32,223 bases of DNA from Aquificaceae bacterium (GTDB lineage Bacteria; Aquificota; Aquificia; Aquificales; Aquificaceae). Shown one piece after another: positions 5,789 through 29,154 of this stretch. The stretch spans positions 1-32,223 of the forward strand of contig JANXBA010000026.1 in the NCBI GenBank assembly GCA_025062075.1. The letters are read 5' to 3'. The translations under genes and the position numbers were made by a program. The notes under the pieces were generated by a model, which saw only the letters and a list, made by a program, of their open reading frames with translations, searched no databases and was not told the DNA's origin. Positions within the stretch are counted from its first letter, which is position 1. Each line of letters begins with the position of its first letter.

Positions 5789-7372
5789 ATGGAAAAAGTT
5801 TTCATCTACGACACCACTCTAAGAGACGGCTCTCAGGCAGAGGGCGTGAGCTTTTCCATGGAGGACAAGCTCCGCATAATCCAAAAACTGGACGAGTTTG
5901 GCATAGACTACGTCGAGTGCGGATGGCCAGGGGCCAATCCTAAGGATACGGTGCTCTTTGAGCGGCTCAAAAAGTACAGAACACGGCACGCCAAACTGGT
6001 GGCCTTCGGCTCTACCAGAAGGCCCAACAAGAAAGTGGAAGAAGACCCGCAGGTGGAGAACCTAATAAAGTCCGGAGCCAGCGTGATAACCATCTTCGGC
6101 AAGAGCTGGGACTTCCACGTGGAGGAGGCGCTAAAGACCTCCCTGGAGGAGAACCTTTCCATGGTCTACGACACGGTGAGCTTTCTCAAAAGGCACGTGC
6201 AGGAGGTGATCTTTGATGCGGAGCACTTCTTTGACGGCTACAAGCGCAACCCTTCCTACGCCCTTGAAGTGCTGAGGTCCGCCTCAGAGGCAGGTGCGGA
6301 CTGGCTGGTGCTGTGCGACACCAACGGCGGGTGCCTGCCCCAAGAGGTGTACCACATCACAAAAAAAGTGGTAGAGGCCCTGCCCGGGGCAAAGATAGGC
6401 ATTCACGCCCACAACGACTCGGACACGGGCGTGGCAAACTCCCTCATGGCAGTGCTGGCAGGGGCCAGACAGGTGCACGGCACCATAAACGGCATCGGGG
6501 AGAGGACGGGTAACGCCAACCTCTGCTCAATAATCGCCAACCTACAGCTGAAGATGGGTTTTAGGGCGGTGCCAGAGAGCTCTCTGAAGAAGCTCACCGA
6601 GCTGAGCCACTTTATCTCCGAGATATCCCACATGCCCCTGCCCAGAAACATGCCCTACGTGGGTGAGAGTGCCTTTGCCCACAAGGCTGGCGTGCACGCC
6701 TCTGCGGTGATGAGACACGCCGGCACTTACGAGCACATAGACCCGGCTTTGGTGGGCAACAGGAGAAAAGTGACCGTCTCAGACCTCTCAGGCAGGAGCA
6801 ACGTACTCTACAAGCTCAAAGAAATGGGTATTCAGGTGGAGGAGAAGTCTCCAGAGCTCCTCAAGCTAGTGGAGAAGATAAAAGAGCTGGAAAAAGAAGG
6901 CTACCACTTTGAGGCGGCGGAGGCCTCCTTTGAGCTCCTCTGCAAGAGACACTTCGGTCTGGTCAGAGACTACTTCCAGCTGGAAGCCTACAGGGTGCTC
7001 ATAGCCAAGAGGAGCGGGGACAACCTGCCGGTGTCTGAGGCCACGGTAAGGCTGTCTGTGGAGGGCGTAAAACAGCACACCGTAGCGCTGGGCAACGGTC
7101 CGGTGAGCGCCCTTGACAGAGCTCTCAGGAAAGCCCTGGAAGAGTTCTACCCAAACCTGAAGGAAGTTCAGCTCATAGACTACAAGGTGAGAATAGTAAA
7201 CGAGTCCGAAGGGACGAAGGCTCGCGTAAGGGTGCTCATCGAGTGCACTGACGGCAACAGAAAGTGGGGCACGGTGGGCGTCTCGGAGAACATCATAGAG
7301 GCCTCTTGGATAGCCCTTACCGACGGCCTGGTCTACAAGCTCCACAAGGACGAAGAGGAAGGTATAATTTAG
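5789..7372 (+). CDS. cimA: (R)-citramalate synthase
   Basis: FIYDTTLRDGSQAEGVSFSMEDKLRI, YVECGWPGANPKDTVLFERLK, ADWLVLCDTNGGCLP, HAHNDSDTGVANSLMAVLAGARQVHGTINGIGERTGNANL, C-terminal LeuA dimer domain. Confidence 0.92.
   Translation: MEKVFIYDTTLRDGSQAEGVSFSMEDKLRIIQKLDEFGIDYVECGWPGANPKDTVLFERLKKYRTRHAKLVAFGSTRRPNKKVEEDPQVENLIKSGASVITIFGKSWDFHVEEALKTSLEENLSMVYDTVSFLKRHVQEVIFDAEHFFDGYKRNPSYALEVLRSASEAGADWLVLCDTNGGCLPQEVYHITKKVVEALPGAKIGIHAHNDSDTGVANSLMAVLAGARQVHGTINGIGERTGNANLCSIIANLQLKMGFRAVPESSLKKLTELSHFISEISHMPLPRNMPYVGESAFAHKAGVHASAVMRHAGTYEHIDPALVGNRRKVTVSDLSGRSNVLYKLKEMGIQVEEKSPELLKLVEKIKELEKEGYHFEAAEASFELLCKRHFGLVRDYFQLEAYRVLIAKRSGDNLPVSEATVRLSVEGVKQHTVALGNGPVSALDRALRKALEEFYPNLKEVQLIDYKVRIVNESEGTKARVRVLIECTDGNRKWGTVGVSENIIEASWIALTDGLVYKLHKDEEEGII
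7363..7368 (+). promoter_or_regulatory. -10 box within cimA stop region for the 7376 gene
   Basis: TATAAT - 7 nt (TTAGGGC) - ATG. Confidence 0.5.
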
Positions 7373-21743: not shown

Positions 21744-22210
21744 GCTTGCTACCGGAGGAGCTCTCAAAGAGACTGCAGGCACACGCGGAGTACTTTCCAC
21801 GCAGAGAGCAGGCCATACTCCTGTGCCTTCACGAAGTGCAGGACTACTACGGACACATACCCGCCTTTGCCCTGCAGGAAGTGGCTCGCGTGCTGGACCT
21901 GCCGCTGAACCATGTGGAGAACGTGGTCTCCTTCTACGACATGTTTGACAGGGGAGAGCCCGCCAGACACAGGATAAGGGTGTGCGTAAGTGTGGTATGC
22001 AACCTAATGAATTCAAACAAGGTGCTCCTCGCCCTAAAGGAACTGCTAGGCATCTCCTTGGGTGAGACCACCAAGGACCGCAGGTTCAAGCTCGTAGGCG
22101 TTCAGTGCATCGGTGCCTGCTCGGAGGCCCCCTGCTTTATGGTGGACGAGGACACATACAAGTTCCAGTCAAAGGAGAAGCTCCATGAAGTCCTATCCCG
22201 TTACACCTGA
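21740..22210 (+). CDS. nuoE: NADH-quinone oxidoreductase subunit E (2Fe-2S)
   Basis: YFPRREQAILLCLHEVQDYYGHIP; VENVVSFYDMF; CVSVVCNLMNS; VQCIGACSEAPCFMV. Confidence 0.94.
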   Translation: MSLLPEELSKRLQAHAEYFPRREQAILLCLHEVQDYYGHIPAFALQEVARVLDLPLNHVENVVSFYDMFDRGEPARHRIRVCVSVVCNLMNSNKVLLALKELLGISLGETTKDRRFKLVGVQCIGACSEAPCFMVDEDTYKFQSKEKLHEVLSRYT

Positions 22211-23462
22211 GATATACGCGGAGACCACGCTAAACCTACTCCTGAAGAGGGCCAAAAGGCCCAAGGTTCACACCCTTGAGGACTACCTAAAGGACGGAGG
22301 CTACAAGGCTCTGGAGAAGGCCCTGAGCATGACACCGCAGGAGATAGTAGACTGGGTGGACAAGAGTCAGCTCAGAGGCCGTGGCGGTGCAGGGTTCCCC
22401 ACAGGTCGCAAGTGGAAGTTTGCGGTGCAGAACCCCGCACCCAGATACCTCATATGCAACGCGGACGAGTCCGAGCCGGGCACCTTCAAAGACCGCATAC
22501 TGATGGAGCGAGACCCACACCTTCTTCTGGAAGGTATGGCCATATCCGCCTACGCCATCGGTGCCAATCAGGCTTTTATATACGTAAGAGGAGAGTACAC
22601 TACCAGCTACTATGTGCTCAGGGACGCCATAGAGGAAGCAAAGCGTGCAGGTTTTTTAGGGAAAAACATTCTTGGCTCGGGCTTTGACTTGGAGATATAC
22701 GTGGCAAGGGGTGCGGGTGCCTACATATGCGGTGAGGAGAGTGCCCTGATTGAGTCCTTGGAGGGCAAGAGAGGCTTTCCCCGCATAAAGCCACCCTACC
22801 CCGTGCAGTACGGCCTCTTTGGAAGACCCACCGTGGTCAACAACGTGGAGACCCTGTGCAACATACCATTAATTGTGGGCATGGGTTGGGAGGAGTACCG
22901 CTACATAGGGCCCAGCGACTACCCAGGACCCAAGCTCTTTCCCGTCAGCGGAAAGGTGAAAAAGCCCGGCGTTTACGAGCTTCCCATGAACACCACCCTG
23001 CGAGAAGTGATATTCAAGCACGCAGGTGGCACCTTGGGGAACAAAAAGGTAAAGGCGGTCTTCTCCGGAGCTCTGGACTGCTTCTCCGCAGAGGAGCTGG
23101 ACACCCCCATGGACTACTCGCCTTTTGGCTTTGGTGGAACGGGCACTGTCATCGTGTTGACCGAAGAAGACGACATAGTAAAGGCCTGCCTGTGGGTGGC
23201 GGAGTTTTACGCCCACGAGAGCTGTGGCCAGTGCACTCCCTGCAGAGTAGGCACTCACGAGCAGGCACACCTGCTGGAGAAGATTCTCCACGGCCAGGCC
23301 CAAGAAAGAGACTGGGAGGGCTTTGACTTCGTAAACGGCCACATCCAGCCTACCTCCATCTGCGGTCTCGGTGCGGTGGCGGGAAGGCTCATCCGCCAAA
23401 CCATGCAGAAGTTCCCGGAAGAGTGGGAAAACTACAGAAGCAAGCTGCGAGTACAGGTTTAA
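22185..23462 (+). CDS. nuoF: NADH-quinone oxidoreductase subunit F
   Basis: LRGRGGAGFPTGRKWKFA, CNADESEPGTFKDR, YICGEESALIESLEGKRG, ESCGQCTPCRVGT; ATG 22185 is the conserved start. Confidence 0.97.
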   Translation: MKSYPVTPEIYAETTLNLLLKRAKRPKVHTLEDYLKDGGYKALEKALSMTPQEIVDWVDKSQLRGRGGAGFPTGRKWKFAVQNPAPRYLICNADESEPGTFKDRILMERDPHLLLEGMAISAYAIGANQAFIYVRGEYTTSYYVLRDAIEEAKRAGFLGKNILGSGFDLEIYVARGAGAYICGEESALIESLEGKRGFPRIKPPYPVQYGLFGRPTVVNNVETLCNIPLIVGMGWEEYRYIGPSDYPGPKLFPVSGKVKKPGVYELPMNTTLREVIFKHAGGTLGNKKVKAVFSGALDCFSAEELDTPMDYSPFGFGGTGTVIVLTEEDDIVKACLWVAEFYAHESCGQCTPCRVGTHEQAHLLEKILHGQAQERDWEGFDFVNGHIQPTSICGLGAVAGRLIRQTMQKFPEEWENYRSKLRVQV

Positions 23463-23766
23463 TCCGCCCAAAGAATACACACGGACGCAGAAATCTGCTC
23501 CGTATGCGTGGTGGAAGAACCCCGATTGGAGGGAGTCTCCCCAAGAGACCTACGCACAGAAGAGCTCATAGACAGGGTGGAAAGATACAAGGTAAAGGAA
23601 GTTATACTGGCAAGCCACCGCTAACTACATAGCCAAGCTCTTAAAGAAGCGGTCCCTCGGCCTGAAAGTGACCAGAATATCCTATGGTCTGCAGTTTGGC
23701 TCTTTTGTGGAGCTGGCGGACGAGCTGTCGCCGGAGAAGTCCATAGAAAACAGAAAGTCCTTCTGA
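23463..23766 (+). pseudogene. recR: recR remnant (fragmented C-terminal/Toprim part)
   Basis: Frame 1: QRIHTDAEICSVCVVEEPRLEGVSPRDLRTEELIDRVERYKVKEVILASHR* (TAA 23622-23624). Frame 2 from 23614: ATANYIAKLLKKRSLGLKVTRISYGLQFGSFVELADELSPEKSIENRKSF* (TGA 23764-23766). Together these follow RecR order with internal gaps. Confidence 0.88.
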
Positions 23767-24482
23767 AAGTCCTCTCTTCTCAGGATTTTTATGCTTGCCT
23801 GCGGTCTCAGCACCTTGAGCCTTCTGGGTATTCCCGTGCTGTAATCCTGCGCATGCCCTCTACCTACCAAAACCACCACTTTGTAGTCAGGGTGTCTGTC
23901 CAAGAGCTTGTTTATGGCGTAAGCCATCCCGTTGTCCCAGGCGTTCTGCACATCAAAAAAACTCTTCTCCTCCACCTTAGGATGTGAGGCCAACACCTTT
24001 TGGAGCTCCCGCCTTTCCCTCTCTGTGTATTCGATTATGGGATTAGGTAGGCTCTCGTCCCGCACCTTTTCCAAACCCTCCCGCCTTATCCTCTGGACCA
24101 GCTCCGAGGAGATATTTATGGCCACCATTCTTATGCCCCTTTCCTTTGCGAACCGCCATATACTGCGGTACATGGCGGGGTCGTAGCCCCACCTTTGGAA
24201 GTACTCCGTTCTCCTCAACAGCTCTTCCTCTTCTATCCTGCAATCCACATACTCGTCAAGGACTCTTTGAAAGGGTTGTTGAAACATCTCCATAGCTATG
24301 AAGAACTTATGACCTCTGAAGTGCAAGGTTTTTATGATTTCAAGCTGAAAGTGGTGGTCCTCTCTGCTCGTGTGCTCTTCGGGTAGGAATATTACCTGAT
24401 GCTTGTCGATAATAACCCATGGAAACTCTCGGGCGGTCGTAGAAGGTATCAGAAGAACAAGAAAACACAAAAGTAAAAACAT
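23682..24482 (-). CDS. ChaN-like lipoprotein/haem-binding family protein
   Basis: IFLPEEHTSREDHHFQLEIIKTL, FIAMEMFQQPFQRVLDEYV, LLDRHPDYKVVVLVGRGHAQDYSTGIPRRL. Confidence 0.8.
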   Translation of the reverse strand: MFLLLCFLVLLIPSTTAREFPWVIIDKHQVIFLPEEHTSREDHHFQLEIIKTLHFRGHKFFIAMEMFQQPFQRVLDEYVDCRIEEEELLRRTEYFQRWGYDPAMYRSIWRFAKERGIRMVAINISSELVQRIRREGLEKVRDESLPNPIIEYTERERRELQKVLASHPKVEEKSFFDVQNAWDNGMAYAINKLLDRHPDYKVVVLVGRGHAQDYSTGIPRRLKVLRPQASIKILRREDFQKDFLFSMDFSGDSSSASSTKEPNCRP

Positions 24483-24524: not shown

Positions 24525-24770
24525 ATGGCCAGAAAACCCAAGAAAAAAGGCGGTGCTAGGTATAAGAGGGTTGTTCTCTCTTTGCCAAAGAGGCTCTACT
24601 ACGTGCTCAACGGTATAGCCATGGGGGACGAACGCAAACTCAACAGACTCATAAAGGGCATTCTTGAAGACAAGCTTATGGAGTCTACCGTGTCAGAGCT
24701 TGAGCTCTACTTAGGAAGAGGAGAGGAAGAAGAAGAGGAAGAGGAGAAGAACACCCAAGAGCAGGCATGA
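24525..24770 (+). CDS. Small protein, basic N-terminus, possible ribbon-helix-helix fold, acidic C-terminal tail
   Basis: MARKPKKKGGARYKRVVLSLPKRLYYVLNGIAMGDERKLNRLIKGILEDKL...GRGEEEEEEEEKNTQEQA; GGAGG SD; 4-bp ATGA overlap with hisC. Confidence 0.7.
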   Translation: MARKPKKKGGARYKRVVLSLPKRLYYVLNGIAMGDERKLNRLIKGILEDKLMESTVSELELYLGRGEEEEEEEEKNTQEQA

Positions 24771-25822
24771 TAAGCGACAGGGTCAGGTCTCTTTCTCCCT
24801 ACAAGACGGAGACCACGCCTGCCCGCATCAAACTCTCCTCCAACGAACTGTCCCTGGAATTGCCCGAGTTCGTAAAAAAACGCCTGGCGGAGGAGGTCTC
24901 CCGCATCCCTTTCCACCGATACCCAGACCCAGAGGCAAGACTTCTGAAAGAGGCCATAGCCCAGAGGTTCGGCCTAAGAGAAGAAAACCTTCTTCTGGGC
25001 AACGGCTCGGATGAGCTCATCTACTACCTTTCCATGGCGGTAGGTGAGTTCAGCAGGGGCATCTTCTACCCCGTGCCTACCTTTTCCATGTACGGCATCT
25101 CCGCGCAGGCGCTGGGCAGAGAAAGGGTGGAAGTCAGACTGAAAGAAGACCTGAGCATAGACCTCCAAGAGAGCCTGCGGGCAATCAGAGAAAAGAGGCC
25201 AGCCCTTGCCTACTTTGCTTACCCCAACAACCCCACGGGCAACTGCTTCGAGGAGGACAAGATAAAGAGCATCGCAGAAGAAGTCCCCTTTACGGTGGTG
25301 GACGAGGCCTACTACCACTACTCGGGAAAGAGTTTCGTGGAGCGAGCCCTCAGCAGACAGGACACGGTCGTACTACGCACCTTGTCCAAGATAGGCATGG
25401 CGGGTCTGAGAGTGGGCTTCATGGTAGGAAATGAAGAAGTAGTCAGAGAGCTCAACAAGCTCAGGCTGCCCTTTAACATAACCTTTCCTTCTCAAGTTAT
25501 GGCCCGGCTCATGCTGACCGAGTTCTACTGGCTTATAGAAGAGCACGTAAAGGAAGTAGTCCGTGAAAGGGAAAGGGTCTACAGAGAGCTCCGGAGAATG
25601 GAGGGCATAAAGGTCTATCCTTCGGAGGCAAACTTCATCCTCTTTAAGAGCCTACTTTTGCCTGCGGAACAGCTTCACATAAGGTTGGTGGAGGAGGGGG
25701 TGCTGATAAGGGACTTCTCCCACATGGTGCCCCAGTGTCTCAGGGTAAGCATAGGCAAGCCTTGGGAAAACGACGCCTTCCTTGAGGCCTTGGAGAAAGT
25801 GTTAAAAACTCTTGACAAGTGA
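24767..25822 (+). CDS. hisC: Histidinol-phosphate aminotransferase
   Basis: KLSSNELSLELPEFVKKRL, LLGNGSDELIYYLS, FAYPNNPTGNCF, VVDEAYYHYSGKS, RTLSKIGMAGLRVGFMVG. Confidence 0.93.
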   Translation: MISDRVRSLSPYKTETTPARIKLSSNELSLELPEFVKKRLAEEVSRIPFHRYPDPEARLLKEAIAQRFGLREENLLLGNGSDELIYYLSMAVGEFSRGIFYPVPTFSMYGISAQALGRERVEVRLKEDLSIDLQESLRAIREKRPALAYFAYPNNPTGNCFEEDKIKSIAEEVPFTVVDEAYYHYSGKSFVERALSRQDTVVLRTLSKIGMAGLRVGFMVGNEEVVRELNKLRLPFNITFPSQVMARLMLTEFYWLIEEHVKEVVRERERVYRELRRMEGIKVYPSEANFILFKSLLLPAEQLHIRLVEEGVLIRDFSHMVPQCLRVSIGKPWENDAFLEALEKVLKTLDK

Positions 25823-25840
25823 GAATTATTTTCATATAAT
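25812..25840 (+). promoter_or_regulatory. Perfect consensus housekeeping-sigma promoter for DUF3501 gene
   Basis: TTGACA - exactly 17 nt - TATAAT, then AAGGAGGTG SD and ATG 25869. Confidence 0.8.
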
Positions 25841-25868
25841 AAAAAGTAAACTCTAAGGAGGTGAAGTC

Positions 25869-26456
25869 ATGAGAAAGGTAAGCAGAGAGGAGATACTCAA
25901 CATATACGAGTACGAGAAGGTGCGTCCTCAGAAGGTGCAGGAGATAATCGAGCTCAAAAAGCACAGGAGGGTTTTCATAGAGCCTTGGGTGCACCTCGTT
26001 TTTGAAAACAGGGATACGGTGTGGTTTCAGGTTCAGGAGATGATAAGAGCGGAGCGCATGGTCCGGGAAGAGGAGATACAGCATGAGCTGGAGGTCTACA
26101 ACGAGCTCGTGCCCGACAGGGGAGAGCTCTCGGTGACCATGTTCATAGAGATACCAGAGGCCAGCGAAAGGAGACGCATACTGCCACAGCTGGTGGGCAT
26201 ACACGACCACCTTTACTTCCACATCGGAGGTAAGCACACGGTCAGGGCGTTGCCAGACGAGAGGAGCAAAGAGGACTACGAATACGGGAAGGCGGCGGTG
26301 GTGCACTTTCTCAAGGTTAAGTTTACAGACGAGCAGGTAGAGGACTTCAAAAGAGAGGAGGTCCGCATAGAGATAAGCCACCCCAACTACAGAGCCCTAA
26401 CCATTCTACCGCAGGAGGTAAAGGCGGAGCTTATAAAAGACCTGACCTCCGAGTAA
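25869..26456 (+). CDS. DUF3501 family protein
   Basis: EEILNIYEYEKVRPQKVQEIIELKKHRRVFIEPWVHLVFENRDTVWFQVQEMIRAERMVREEEIQHELEVYNELVPDRGELSVTMFIEI. Confidence 0.85.
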   Translation: MRKVSREEILNIYEYEKVRPQKVQEIIELKKHRRVFIEPWVHLVFENRDTVWFQVQEMIRAERMVREEEIQHELEVYNELVPDRGELSVTMFIEIPEASERRRILPQLVGIHDHLYFHIGGKHTVRALPDERSKEDYEYGKAAVVHFLKVKFTDEQVEDFKREEVRIEISHPNYRALTILPQEVKAELIKDLTSE

Positions 26457-26467
26457 AATATTCTCTT

Positions 26468-27409
26468 ATGATAAACGTCTATGCCAGCGTGGGGGGCGTC
26501 TTTAAAAAGTTTGGTCTTGACCAGTTTGGAGACATAAGGCAGGAGGCGGTTATATGGCTTGATGTGGAAAAGCCCGGGGATGCGGAGATAGACTGGCTTA
26601 GAAGCGCCATAGGTTTCCAGATGCCCCCCAGGGAGGTCTTTGGAGACATAGAGATAAGCAGTAAGTACAAGGAAGAGGGCGAAGCCATATACATGAACTT
26701 GTCTTTTGTGATACAGCAGAAGGAGGACATAAGCGTAGAGCCCGTGCTCTTTTTCATAAAGGGCAGGTACATGGTGAGCATACGCTACAGGGACATACCC
26801 AGTATGCTCATCTTCGTAAAAAGGATGGAGCAAGCTCCGGCCAGCTTCCAGTTTCCCGAGGCCATCTTTTCCCAGATAGTGCACATCGAGGTGGACAGGC
26901 TCGGAGACAGGCTGGAGATACTGGGAAGGAGGATAAGAAACCTCCGGAAGGAGGTCTTCGTAGAGCAGTCAGAGGAAATCATAAGGGAGATATCCTACTA
27001 CGACGAGCTCAACATCACCATAAGGGAGACCATAAACGAAAAGCTCAGAATACTGAGCCACTTTGTGAAAAGCCCCAAGGTAAACGCCCAGACAAAGAGG
27101 GACATAAAGATTGCCCTGGACGACCTGCACACCCTTTTGGACTACACAAGCTTTTACATGGACAAGCTGGACAGCATTCAAAACTCCCTGCTGGGGCTTA
27201 TCTCCATAAAGCAGAATGAGGCGGTAAAGGTCTTCACCGTGCTTGCCACCATATTCCTGCCAGCCACCTTAATAGCCAGCATCTTTGGCATGAACTTTGA
27301 AAACATGCCAGAGCTCCACTGGCGATACGGTTATCCCTTTTCCCTTCTTCTTATGCTGGGGACTACCCTGTCCCTCATATACTGGGTCAAAAGAAAAGGT
27401 TGGCTATGA
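26468..27409 (+). CDS. corA: CorA-family magnesium/cobalt transporter
   Basis: ATIFLPATLIASIFGMNFENMPELHWRYGYPFSLLLMLGTTL (GMN motif) plus long cytoplasmic domain. Confidence 0.93.
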   Translation: MINVYASVGGVFKKFGLDQFGDIRQEAVIWLDVEKPGDAEIDWLRSAIGFQMPPREVFGDIEISSKYKEEGEAIYMNLSFVIQQKEDISVEPVLFFIKGRYMVSIRYRDIPSMLIFVKRMEQAPASFQFPEAIFSQIVHIEVDRLGDRLEILGRRIRNLRKEVFVEQSEEIIREISYYDELNITIRETINEKLRILSHFVKSPKVNAQTKRDIKIALDDLHTLLDYTSFYMDKLDSIQNSLLGLISIKQNEAVKVFTVLATIFLPATLIASIFGMNFENMPELHWRYGYPFSLLLMLGTTLSLIYWVKRKGWL

Positions 27410-27858
27410 TAAAGAGCTACAGCAGGGAAGACTTACTGATAGGTTTTTTTGTCCTCTTTGCCCTGCTCTACCCTTTCTTTATAACCTTGCTCATTTTTTT
27501 GGAGGAAGTGCGGGAAAAGAACAACAAAATGCAAGAACTGCGCGCCTTTTACAGCTTCCTGCTTGGTTTGGAAGAGTGTAGGCAAGAAAGGGCACAGGAG
27601 CTCTCAGGGCTTATGGCAGAGAGACTTTCTCAAAGCATGGGAGGTGCGGAGGGCCTGCTGAAAACCTGCAACGCCTACAGGAAGGCTTACCCCTCCGCCC
27701 GTGCGGAGGAGAAAACCCTCAGGGAAGGTGAGCTCCAGGTAGAACTCATAAAAAAGGAAAAGGGAATGACCCAGAGGCTCCTCTCCGTGCGCCTCTACTA
27801 CGGCGGTGAGGGAGAGAGTCTGAAGATAGAAAAAGTAGAGTATGAAAAAGGGAATTGA
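27406..27858 (+). CDS. Hypothetical single-TM membrane-anchored protein
   Basis: MIKSYSREDLLIGFFVLFALLYPFFITLLIFLEEVREKNNKMQ; ATGA overlap with corA. Confidence 0.65.
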   Translation: MIKSYSREDLLIGFFVLFALLYPFFITLLIFLEEVREKNNKMQELRAFYSFLLGLEECRQERAQELSGLMAERLSQSMGGAEGLLKTCNAYRKAYPSARAEEKTLREGELQVELIKKEKGMTQRLLSVRLYYGGEGESLKIEKVEYEKGN

Positions 27859-28714
27859 CATAGGGGGGACTTTCGTAAAGGTCTTCTGGGAGGACGGCAC
27901 TAGGGAAAAGCACTACATAAAGGAGCTGTCCAAAGACAGACAGGCCTTCCTGACGAAGGTCAGAGAAATAGCCCTCTCGGGAGAGCCGGAAGCGGTAGGC
28001 GTGGCGGTGGCAGGCTTTACCTCCACGGAGGGCGTGGTCTACAGGTCACCCAACATACCTGCGCTGGACGGCGTAAACCTACGAGAACTTTTCAAGGGGT
28101 TAAAGGTCAAGGTGGTCAATGACGTGTCCGCAGGGGCTTACGGCGAGTGGTTTTACGAGCACAGAGACAGCAAGGTGCTACTCTTCGTGGCGATAGGCAC
28201 AGGATTGGGCGGGGGGCTGGTGGTAGAGGGAAGGCCCTTTTTGGGCGCTTGCGGGTGCAGTTTGGAGCTGGGGCACCACACCATAAGGGTGGGAGGTGAG
28301 AGGTGTAGCTGTGGTAGGTTGGGCTGTTGGGAGGCCTACTGCTCCTCCTACGGGCTGGAGAGGACCTACCAGAGGCTCTCCGGCGAGACCCTGAAGGACT
28401 TTCACATAGTCCAGAGAGCTCTACAGGGAGAGCCTTACGCTCTCAAGGCGGTGCAGGAGTTCAAAGAGCACCTCCTGACAGGGCTCATGAACGCGGTCCA
28501 CCTTTTTAACCCAGACAGGGTGGTGCTGGGGGGTGGTCTGATAGACCTCATGGCGGGCCTGCTGGAGGGCCTTGAGGAGGAGCTGAAAGCTACATGCGAA
28601 AGCTTACCTGCTAAGTGCCTTCGCCTGTTCTTTTCCCGGTGCGCGGAGTACTGTATGGCACGGGGTGCTCTGGCTCTGAGCCTGACGGACGACACTCAGG
28701 CCAAGTTGGCGTAA
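27842..28714 (+). CDS. ROK-family sugar kinase/glucokinase
   Basis: KGIDIGGTFVKVFWED; VAIGTGLGGGLVVEG; ELGHHTIRVGGERCSCGRLGCWEAYCS zinc motif. Confidence 0.9.
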   Translation: MKKGIDIGGTFVKVFWEDGTREKHYIKELSKDRQAFLTKVREIALSGEPEAVGVAVAGFTSTEGVVYRSPNIPALDGVNLRELFKGLKVKVVNDVSAGAYGEWFYEHRDSKVLLFVAIGTGLGGGLVVEGRPFLGACGCSLELGHHTIRVGGERCSCGRLGCWEAYCSSYGLERTYQRLSGETLKDFHIVQRALQGEPYALKAVQEFKEHLLTGLMNAVHLFNPDRVVLGGGLIDLMAGLLEGLEEELKATCESLPAKCLRLFFSRCAEYCMARGALALSLTDDTQAKLA

Positions 28715-29154
28715 GCCCTTCTTGCCAGCACTATCTGGTACTTGAGGAAGTTGGAAAAGTCCCGGAGCTCTTGGGCTATTTGCATCATGCGGTGGTGCCC
28801 TCCCGTGCGGTAGGTCTCCTCAAGACCCCCAAGAATGAGTCCTATTCTCTGGAGAGGCTCTCTCGGACCTACGCCTTCTAGGAATATGGGACACGCACTC
28901 TCTATGGTAGGTAACACTACGCCTATCCAGGATAGGGCCTCCAAGGCTAGACTCAGAGAGTAGTCCACGGGGTAGTCCTCCGTTTCAGAAGAGGCAAGAA
29001 GCTGACTTATAAGGTCAAGGAGCTCCACGTTGTAGTAAAGCAGGTCAAAGGCAGTGTTGGTGCTAACCCTTGCTCTGTGAGAGAGCAGGAGCAGGTTTAT
29101 CAACCTTTCCTGCATGTGCAAGAGCTCTTCAATTCTCTCTACGAGCCCTTTCAT
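28696..29154 (-). CDS. Hypothetical helical protein downstream of hslU
   Basis: ATG overlaps hslU stop (ATGA), no recognised motif. Confidence 0.6.

Follow-up and report, generated by a model that had tools for sequence, protein, structure and literature searches.

What has become of the recR gene whose pieces lie between nuoF and a chaN-like gene, and does the organism still have RecR? The window, 32,223 nt of Aquificaceae DNA, is contig C55 of genome G000 (1.25 Mb, a 66-contig draft with estimated completeness of 99.7% and estimated contamination of 0.49%). The initial annotation had described RecR pieces lying in order in two frames between the two genes, and both the HMM search and tblastn bear this out. 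Collinear recR pieces, spread over two frames, occupy positions 23472–23766. Since the HMM matches have E-values of 1.5e-8 (23611–23757) and 1.8e-4 (23526–23642) and tblastn with intact RecR as query reaches E = 6e-31 over both pieces combined, the recR identity of these pieces is far above chance. The first frame carries RIHTDAEICSVC at 23472–23507, which is half of the zinc-finger region, VVEEP at 23508–23522 and LEGVSPRDLRTEELIDRVERYKVKEVILA (LEGVSPRD...EVILA) at 23526–23612, followed by TAA. The second frame carries ATANYIAKLLKKRSLGLKVTRISYGLQFGSFVELADELSPEKSIENRKSF at 23614–23763 and a TGA at 23764–23766; it shows 78% identity over 51 aa to the RecR encoded on contig C61 of the same genome (Table 1). 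In the literature we found nothing specific to a decayed recR beside chaN.

Table 1. Features at and around the recR remnant (coordinates are those of the window)
Feature	Position	Strand	Basis or remark
nuoF, intact; end of the tig-clpP-clpX-skp-lpxD-mqnA-nuoE-nuoF block	22200–23462	+	Neighbourhood comparison with congeners
recR remnant, first frame	23472–23612	+	HMM (E = 1.8e-4) and codon alignment to the intact C61 recR
Third deletion, net −23 bp with frameshift	23612–23614	+	TNPNVEGE (TNP..EGE Toprim motif) removed
recR remnant, second frame: C-terminal 50 codons and stop	23614–23766	+	HMM (E = 1.5e-8)
recR 3′ end, being also the C-terminal codons and stop of chaN (85-bp antisense overlap)	23682–23766	−	Overlap comparison
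chaN-like gene, intact (PF04187, 266 aa); ancestral convergent neighbour of recR	23682–24482	−	
orf81, hisC, DUF3501 gene, corA; downstream block of recR-chaN in congeners	24525–27409	+	

Lesions were called against the intact recR on C61. Like the remnant, RecR (TIGR00615, the C61 copy and congeners) has, in the same order, the segments at codons 65–76, 88–92, 118–146 and 155–204; unlike RecR, the remnant has no start codon, is frameshifted and lacks the HhH region, TNP..EGE, a portion of the zinc finger and the greater part of the first Toprim segment. The parts named earlier as missing were confirmed as codons 1–64, 33 bp, 72 bp and the 23 bp with TNP..EGE. Codons 1–64 make up the missing 5′ third of the gene. 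Two in-frame deletions lie inside the first-frame piece: the first (net −33 bp) took SSPKRSKRFIC, and the second (net −72 bp) left one codon in place of QDAFAIEKLERYKGVYHVLGGRIAP. At the third junction C61 reads GCA-ACCAACCCAAACGTAGAGGGAGAG-GCCACC and the window reads GCA-A-GCCACC. The 33-bp deletion is bounded in the intact paralogue by two CATATG direct repeats, a pattern expected of slippage. The features of a functional RecR (N-terminal HhH, full four-cysteine zinc finger and TNP..EGE Toprim motif) are absent, and collinear homologous segments are combined with disabling lesions. The codon alignment to the C61 gene thus upholds the earlier reading of genuine decay by several separate deletions. 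One might still suppose that a second, intact recR was garbled by errors of sequencing or assembly, as a single 66-contig draft assembly is the sole basis for both the deletions and the nuoF/recR junction; this is scarcely credible in view of four independent lesions, the 5′ truncation included, which are unlike a single sequencing error, of the excess of amino acid changes at invariant positions of the remnant and of the intact state of the flanking nuoF and chaN.

The initial annotation had gone on to propose that loss of RecR would affect RecFOR recombination. We took as functional RecR a whole-protein match to TIGR00615 above the curated cut-off of 162.55 bits. The two pieces in the window reach 33.9 and 20.3 bits; the genome-wide search for RecR that had been suggested leads to an intact recR of 204 codons on C61, overlooked earlier, which scores 234.2 bits. 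The genome is therefore not RecR-less, and this 234-bit match refutes the implied loss of RecR with impaired RecFOR recombination, a divergent RecO-like protein being intact as well. The C61 gene is expected to supply the RecR function in this organism.

On C61 recR is divergent from valS and has on its other side an ORF without a Pfam match. Could this contig be a contaminant from a close relative, the organism itself being truly without RecR? The fragmentation of the draft and its non-zero contamination estimate speak for such a reading, but it is improbable on several counts. The same contig holds valS, of which no other full-length copy was found in this nearly complete genome, together with nadB and leuS-like genes. 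No known gene is closer to the remnant than the C61 recR, with which it has seven lineage-specific residues in common; the GC3 of the C61 gene, 0.64, fits the window genes (0.62–0.69) and exceeds that of every other recR compared. Furthermore, recR is present at least in part in all 41 Aquificales genomes covered by the HMM search, and in 40 of them it scores over the cut-off.

A survey of recF and recO had also been proposed: recO shows no loss, and RecF yields no match over the cut-off, but this holds for each of the 26 Aquificales genomes searched (0/26). The NCBI RecO model gave no match when run against the organism's own genome. The notion that RecO was lost was rejected, since the divergent RecO-like protein of a congener matches an intact gene at G000:C35:5120–5716. 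This protein is present in 13 of the 14 genomes of the genus; genus-wide, it is missed by the NCBI RecO model or scored at only E ~1e-4. The weak RecF matches lie nearly all within much longer frames (∼900–1200 aa), as expected of SMC/Rad50-like ATPases. Because no genome of the 26 has a RecF match over the cut-off, its absence is nothing special to G000.

Comparison of the nuoF–chaN interval with relatives indicates which of the two recR sites is the older one. Among 12 congeners with full-length recR, the gene lies tail-to-tail with chaN in 11; in the remaining one, G002, chaN is on a different contig. The genes after recR-chaN in congeners are orf81, hisC, the DUF3501 gene and mostly corA, an order identical to that in the window. 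As congeners share the chaN-orf81-hisC-DUF3501-corA context and have recR beside chaN there, the window site is the ancestral location of recR. The adjacency to nuoF is peculiar to G000: in none of the 12 congeners is nuoF near recR, and it has other genes after it, which in several of them are a UDG gene, arsA and a ribosomal-protein operon. In G000 contig C9 carries arsA and the ribosomal-protein operon, and C56 carries a trxB-like gene that several congeners have upstream of recR. Because congeners keep recR and nuoF in separate blocks and the ancestral neighbours lie elsewhere in G000, the gene orders identify the nuoF/recR junction as a rearrangement point found in this genome alone. No remnant of the recR N-terminal part was found upstream of the trxB-like gene on C56 or around arsA on C9. 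Farther along the window, at 28696–28714, two congener genes (471 aa and ∼86 aa) are absent; in congeners they sit between the kinase-like gene (27842–28714 in the window) and the gene at 28696–29154.

The remnant and the C61 recR form a sister pair with support of 99 in the protein tree and 100 in the DNA tree. The remnant has the longer branch, 0.18 versus 0.05 (protein) and 0.26 versus 0.07 (DNA), a ∼3.6-fold difference. Seven residues common to the two (H67, E130, D133, V135, L164, F185 and V186) are rare or absent in the 12 congeners, and the remnant alone has changes at genus-invariant sites (G65R, I128T, F168S and L194P). Sister placement, shared residues and the longer remnant branch all fit a recR duplication in this lineage, after which the copy beside chaN decayed. 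Nonsynonymous changes make up 6 of 15 substitutions assigned to the C61 branch, a share below the neutral value of 0.73 (p = 0.007), and 13 of 21 on the remnant branch, a share not distinguishable from neutral (p = 0.17) in a small sample from 96 surviving codons. The two shares do not differ significantly from each other (Fisher p = 0.31), the pieces being short and the test weak.

We sought chaN sequence past the recR stop on C61 as the mark of a copied segment; it is absent, divergence starting at the stop codon. The synonymous distance between remnant and C61 recR is ∼0.7. If the C61 gene, rather than being duplicated within the genome, had been transferred from an unsampled close sister species and had displaced the resident recR (xenologous replacement), so sizeable a divergence together with recent decay would be accounted for. 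Such a transfer is, however, unlikely, if not negligibly so, no closer relative having been found: the C61 branch is short (0.07 in the DNA tree) with the bulk of the divergence on the remnant, and the composition of C61 recR fits the genome.

Very probably, then, the remnant is the dead ancestral recR: a copy of the gene arose on C61 within this lineage, or came from an unsampled organism very close to it, and the old gene afterwards became redundant, was rearranged and decayed. Under this history recR would first have been copied to its present place beside valS, whereupon the old gene, tail-to-tail with chaN, would have turned redundant. A rearrangement of the chromosome that broke within the 5′ part of recR would have brought nuoF to just upstream of the gene, at the cost of the first 64 codons; after that would have come small deletions, one of them between the CATATG direct repeats, along with substitutions that were roughly neutral. 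We infer the order of these steps, the present states being directly observed. Judged by its sequence, the remnant is best classed as an ordinary pseudogene of a duplicated recR. Truncation, deletions, a frameshift, constraint that may be relaxed and an intact, presumably functional paralogue in the same genome are all as in other bacterial pseudogenes left after duplication or relocation, but, unlike these, its 3′ end still codes on the opposite strand.

This double role of 23682–23766 had been missed in the initial annotation. As the antisense 3′ end of chaN, the last 85 bp of the remnant are still live sequence, coding for the ChaN C-terminus. The chaN/recR overlap is exactly 85 bp in the window and in nine congeners with intact recR; it is 70 bp in G016 and G018, 9 bp in G015 and G024 and 4 bp in G008 and G012. 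Given the 4-bp overlaps and relocated chaN genes without the tail, the tail is dispensable for chaN-like proteins. Since ChaN homologues outside the family match up to residue ∼220–240 only, the tail may have been overprinted on recR. The remnant differs from C61 at 10 of 81 sites in the overlap and at 42 of 207 in the rest; intact recR pairs vary equally and in both directions, so the lower share in the overlap need not reflect better conservation. That the remnant is retained because it has some function itself, as a short Toprim-like peptide or as regulatory antisense of chaN, is most improbable: the conserved 3′ 85 bp overlapping chaN could suggest it, but chaN coding accounts for that conservation, the rest has only an internal GTG start (38 codons) without a Toprim motif, and selection on the rest is not distinguishable from neutral.

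G022, from another genus of the same family, resembles the window in having a recR C-terminal fragment opposite chaN and an intact recR elsewhere. It differs in that two direct copies of the recR 3′ end, recent in origin (∼146 bp, 98% identical; at 6013–6158 and 13431–13577 of L050, G022:C1:1383000–1402000), flank a 7.3-kb insertion between recR and chaN, so the two cases are not the same event. The insertion carries cellulose-synthase-like (BcsB/BcsA-like) genes and left both recR and chaN whole; the pattern looks as if the recR 3′ end had been an integration target. A tentative idea, which we hold to be rather doubtful, is that the antisense overlap with chaN preserved the recR tail, convergent overlaps acting as a ratchet that fixes the fossil of a relocated gene, with G022 as a second, independent case.

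These results remove a false lead, as G000 should not be called RecR-deficient. The remnant provides a clear case of sequence annotated as ‘pseudogene’ that remains live code on the opposite strand, and it would mark both the relocation of recR and the breakpoint of a rearrangement in a small-genome lineage of the Aquificaceae, that of a heat-loving bacterium.
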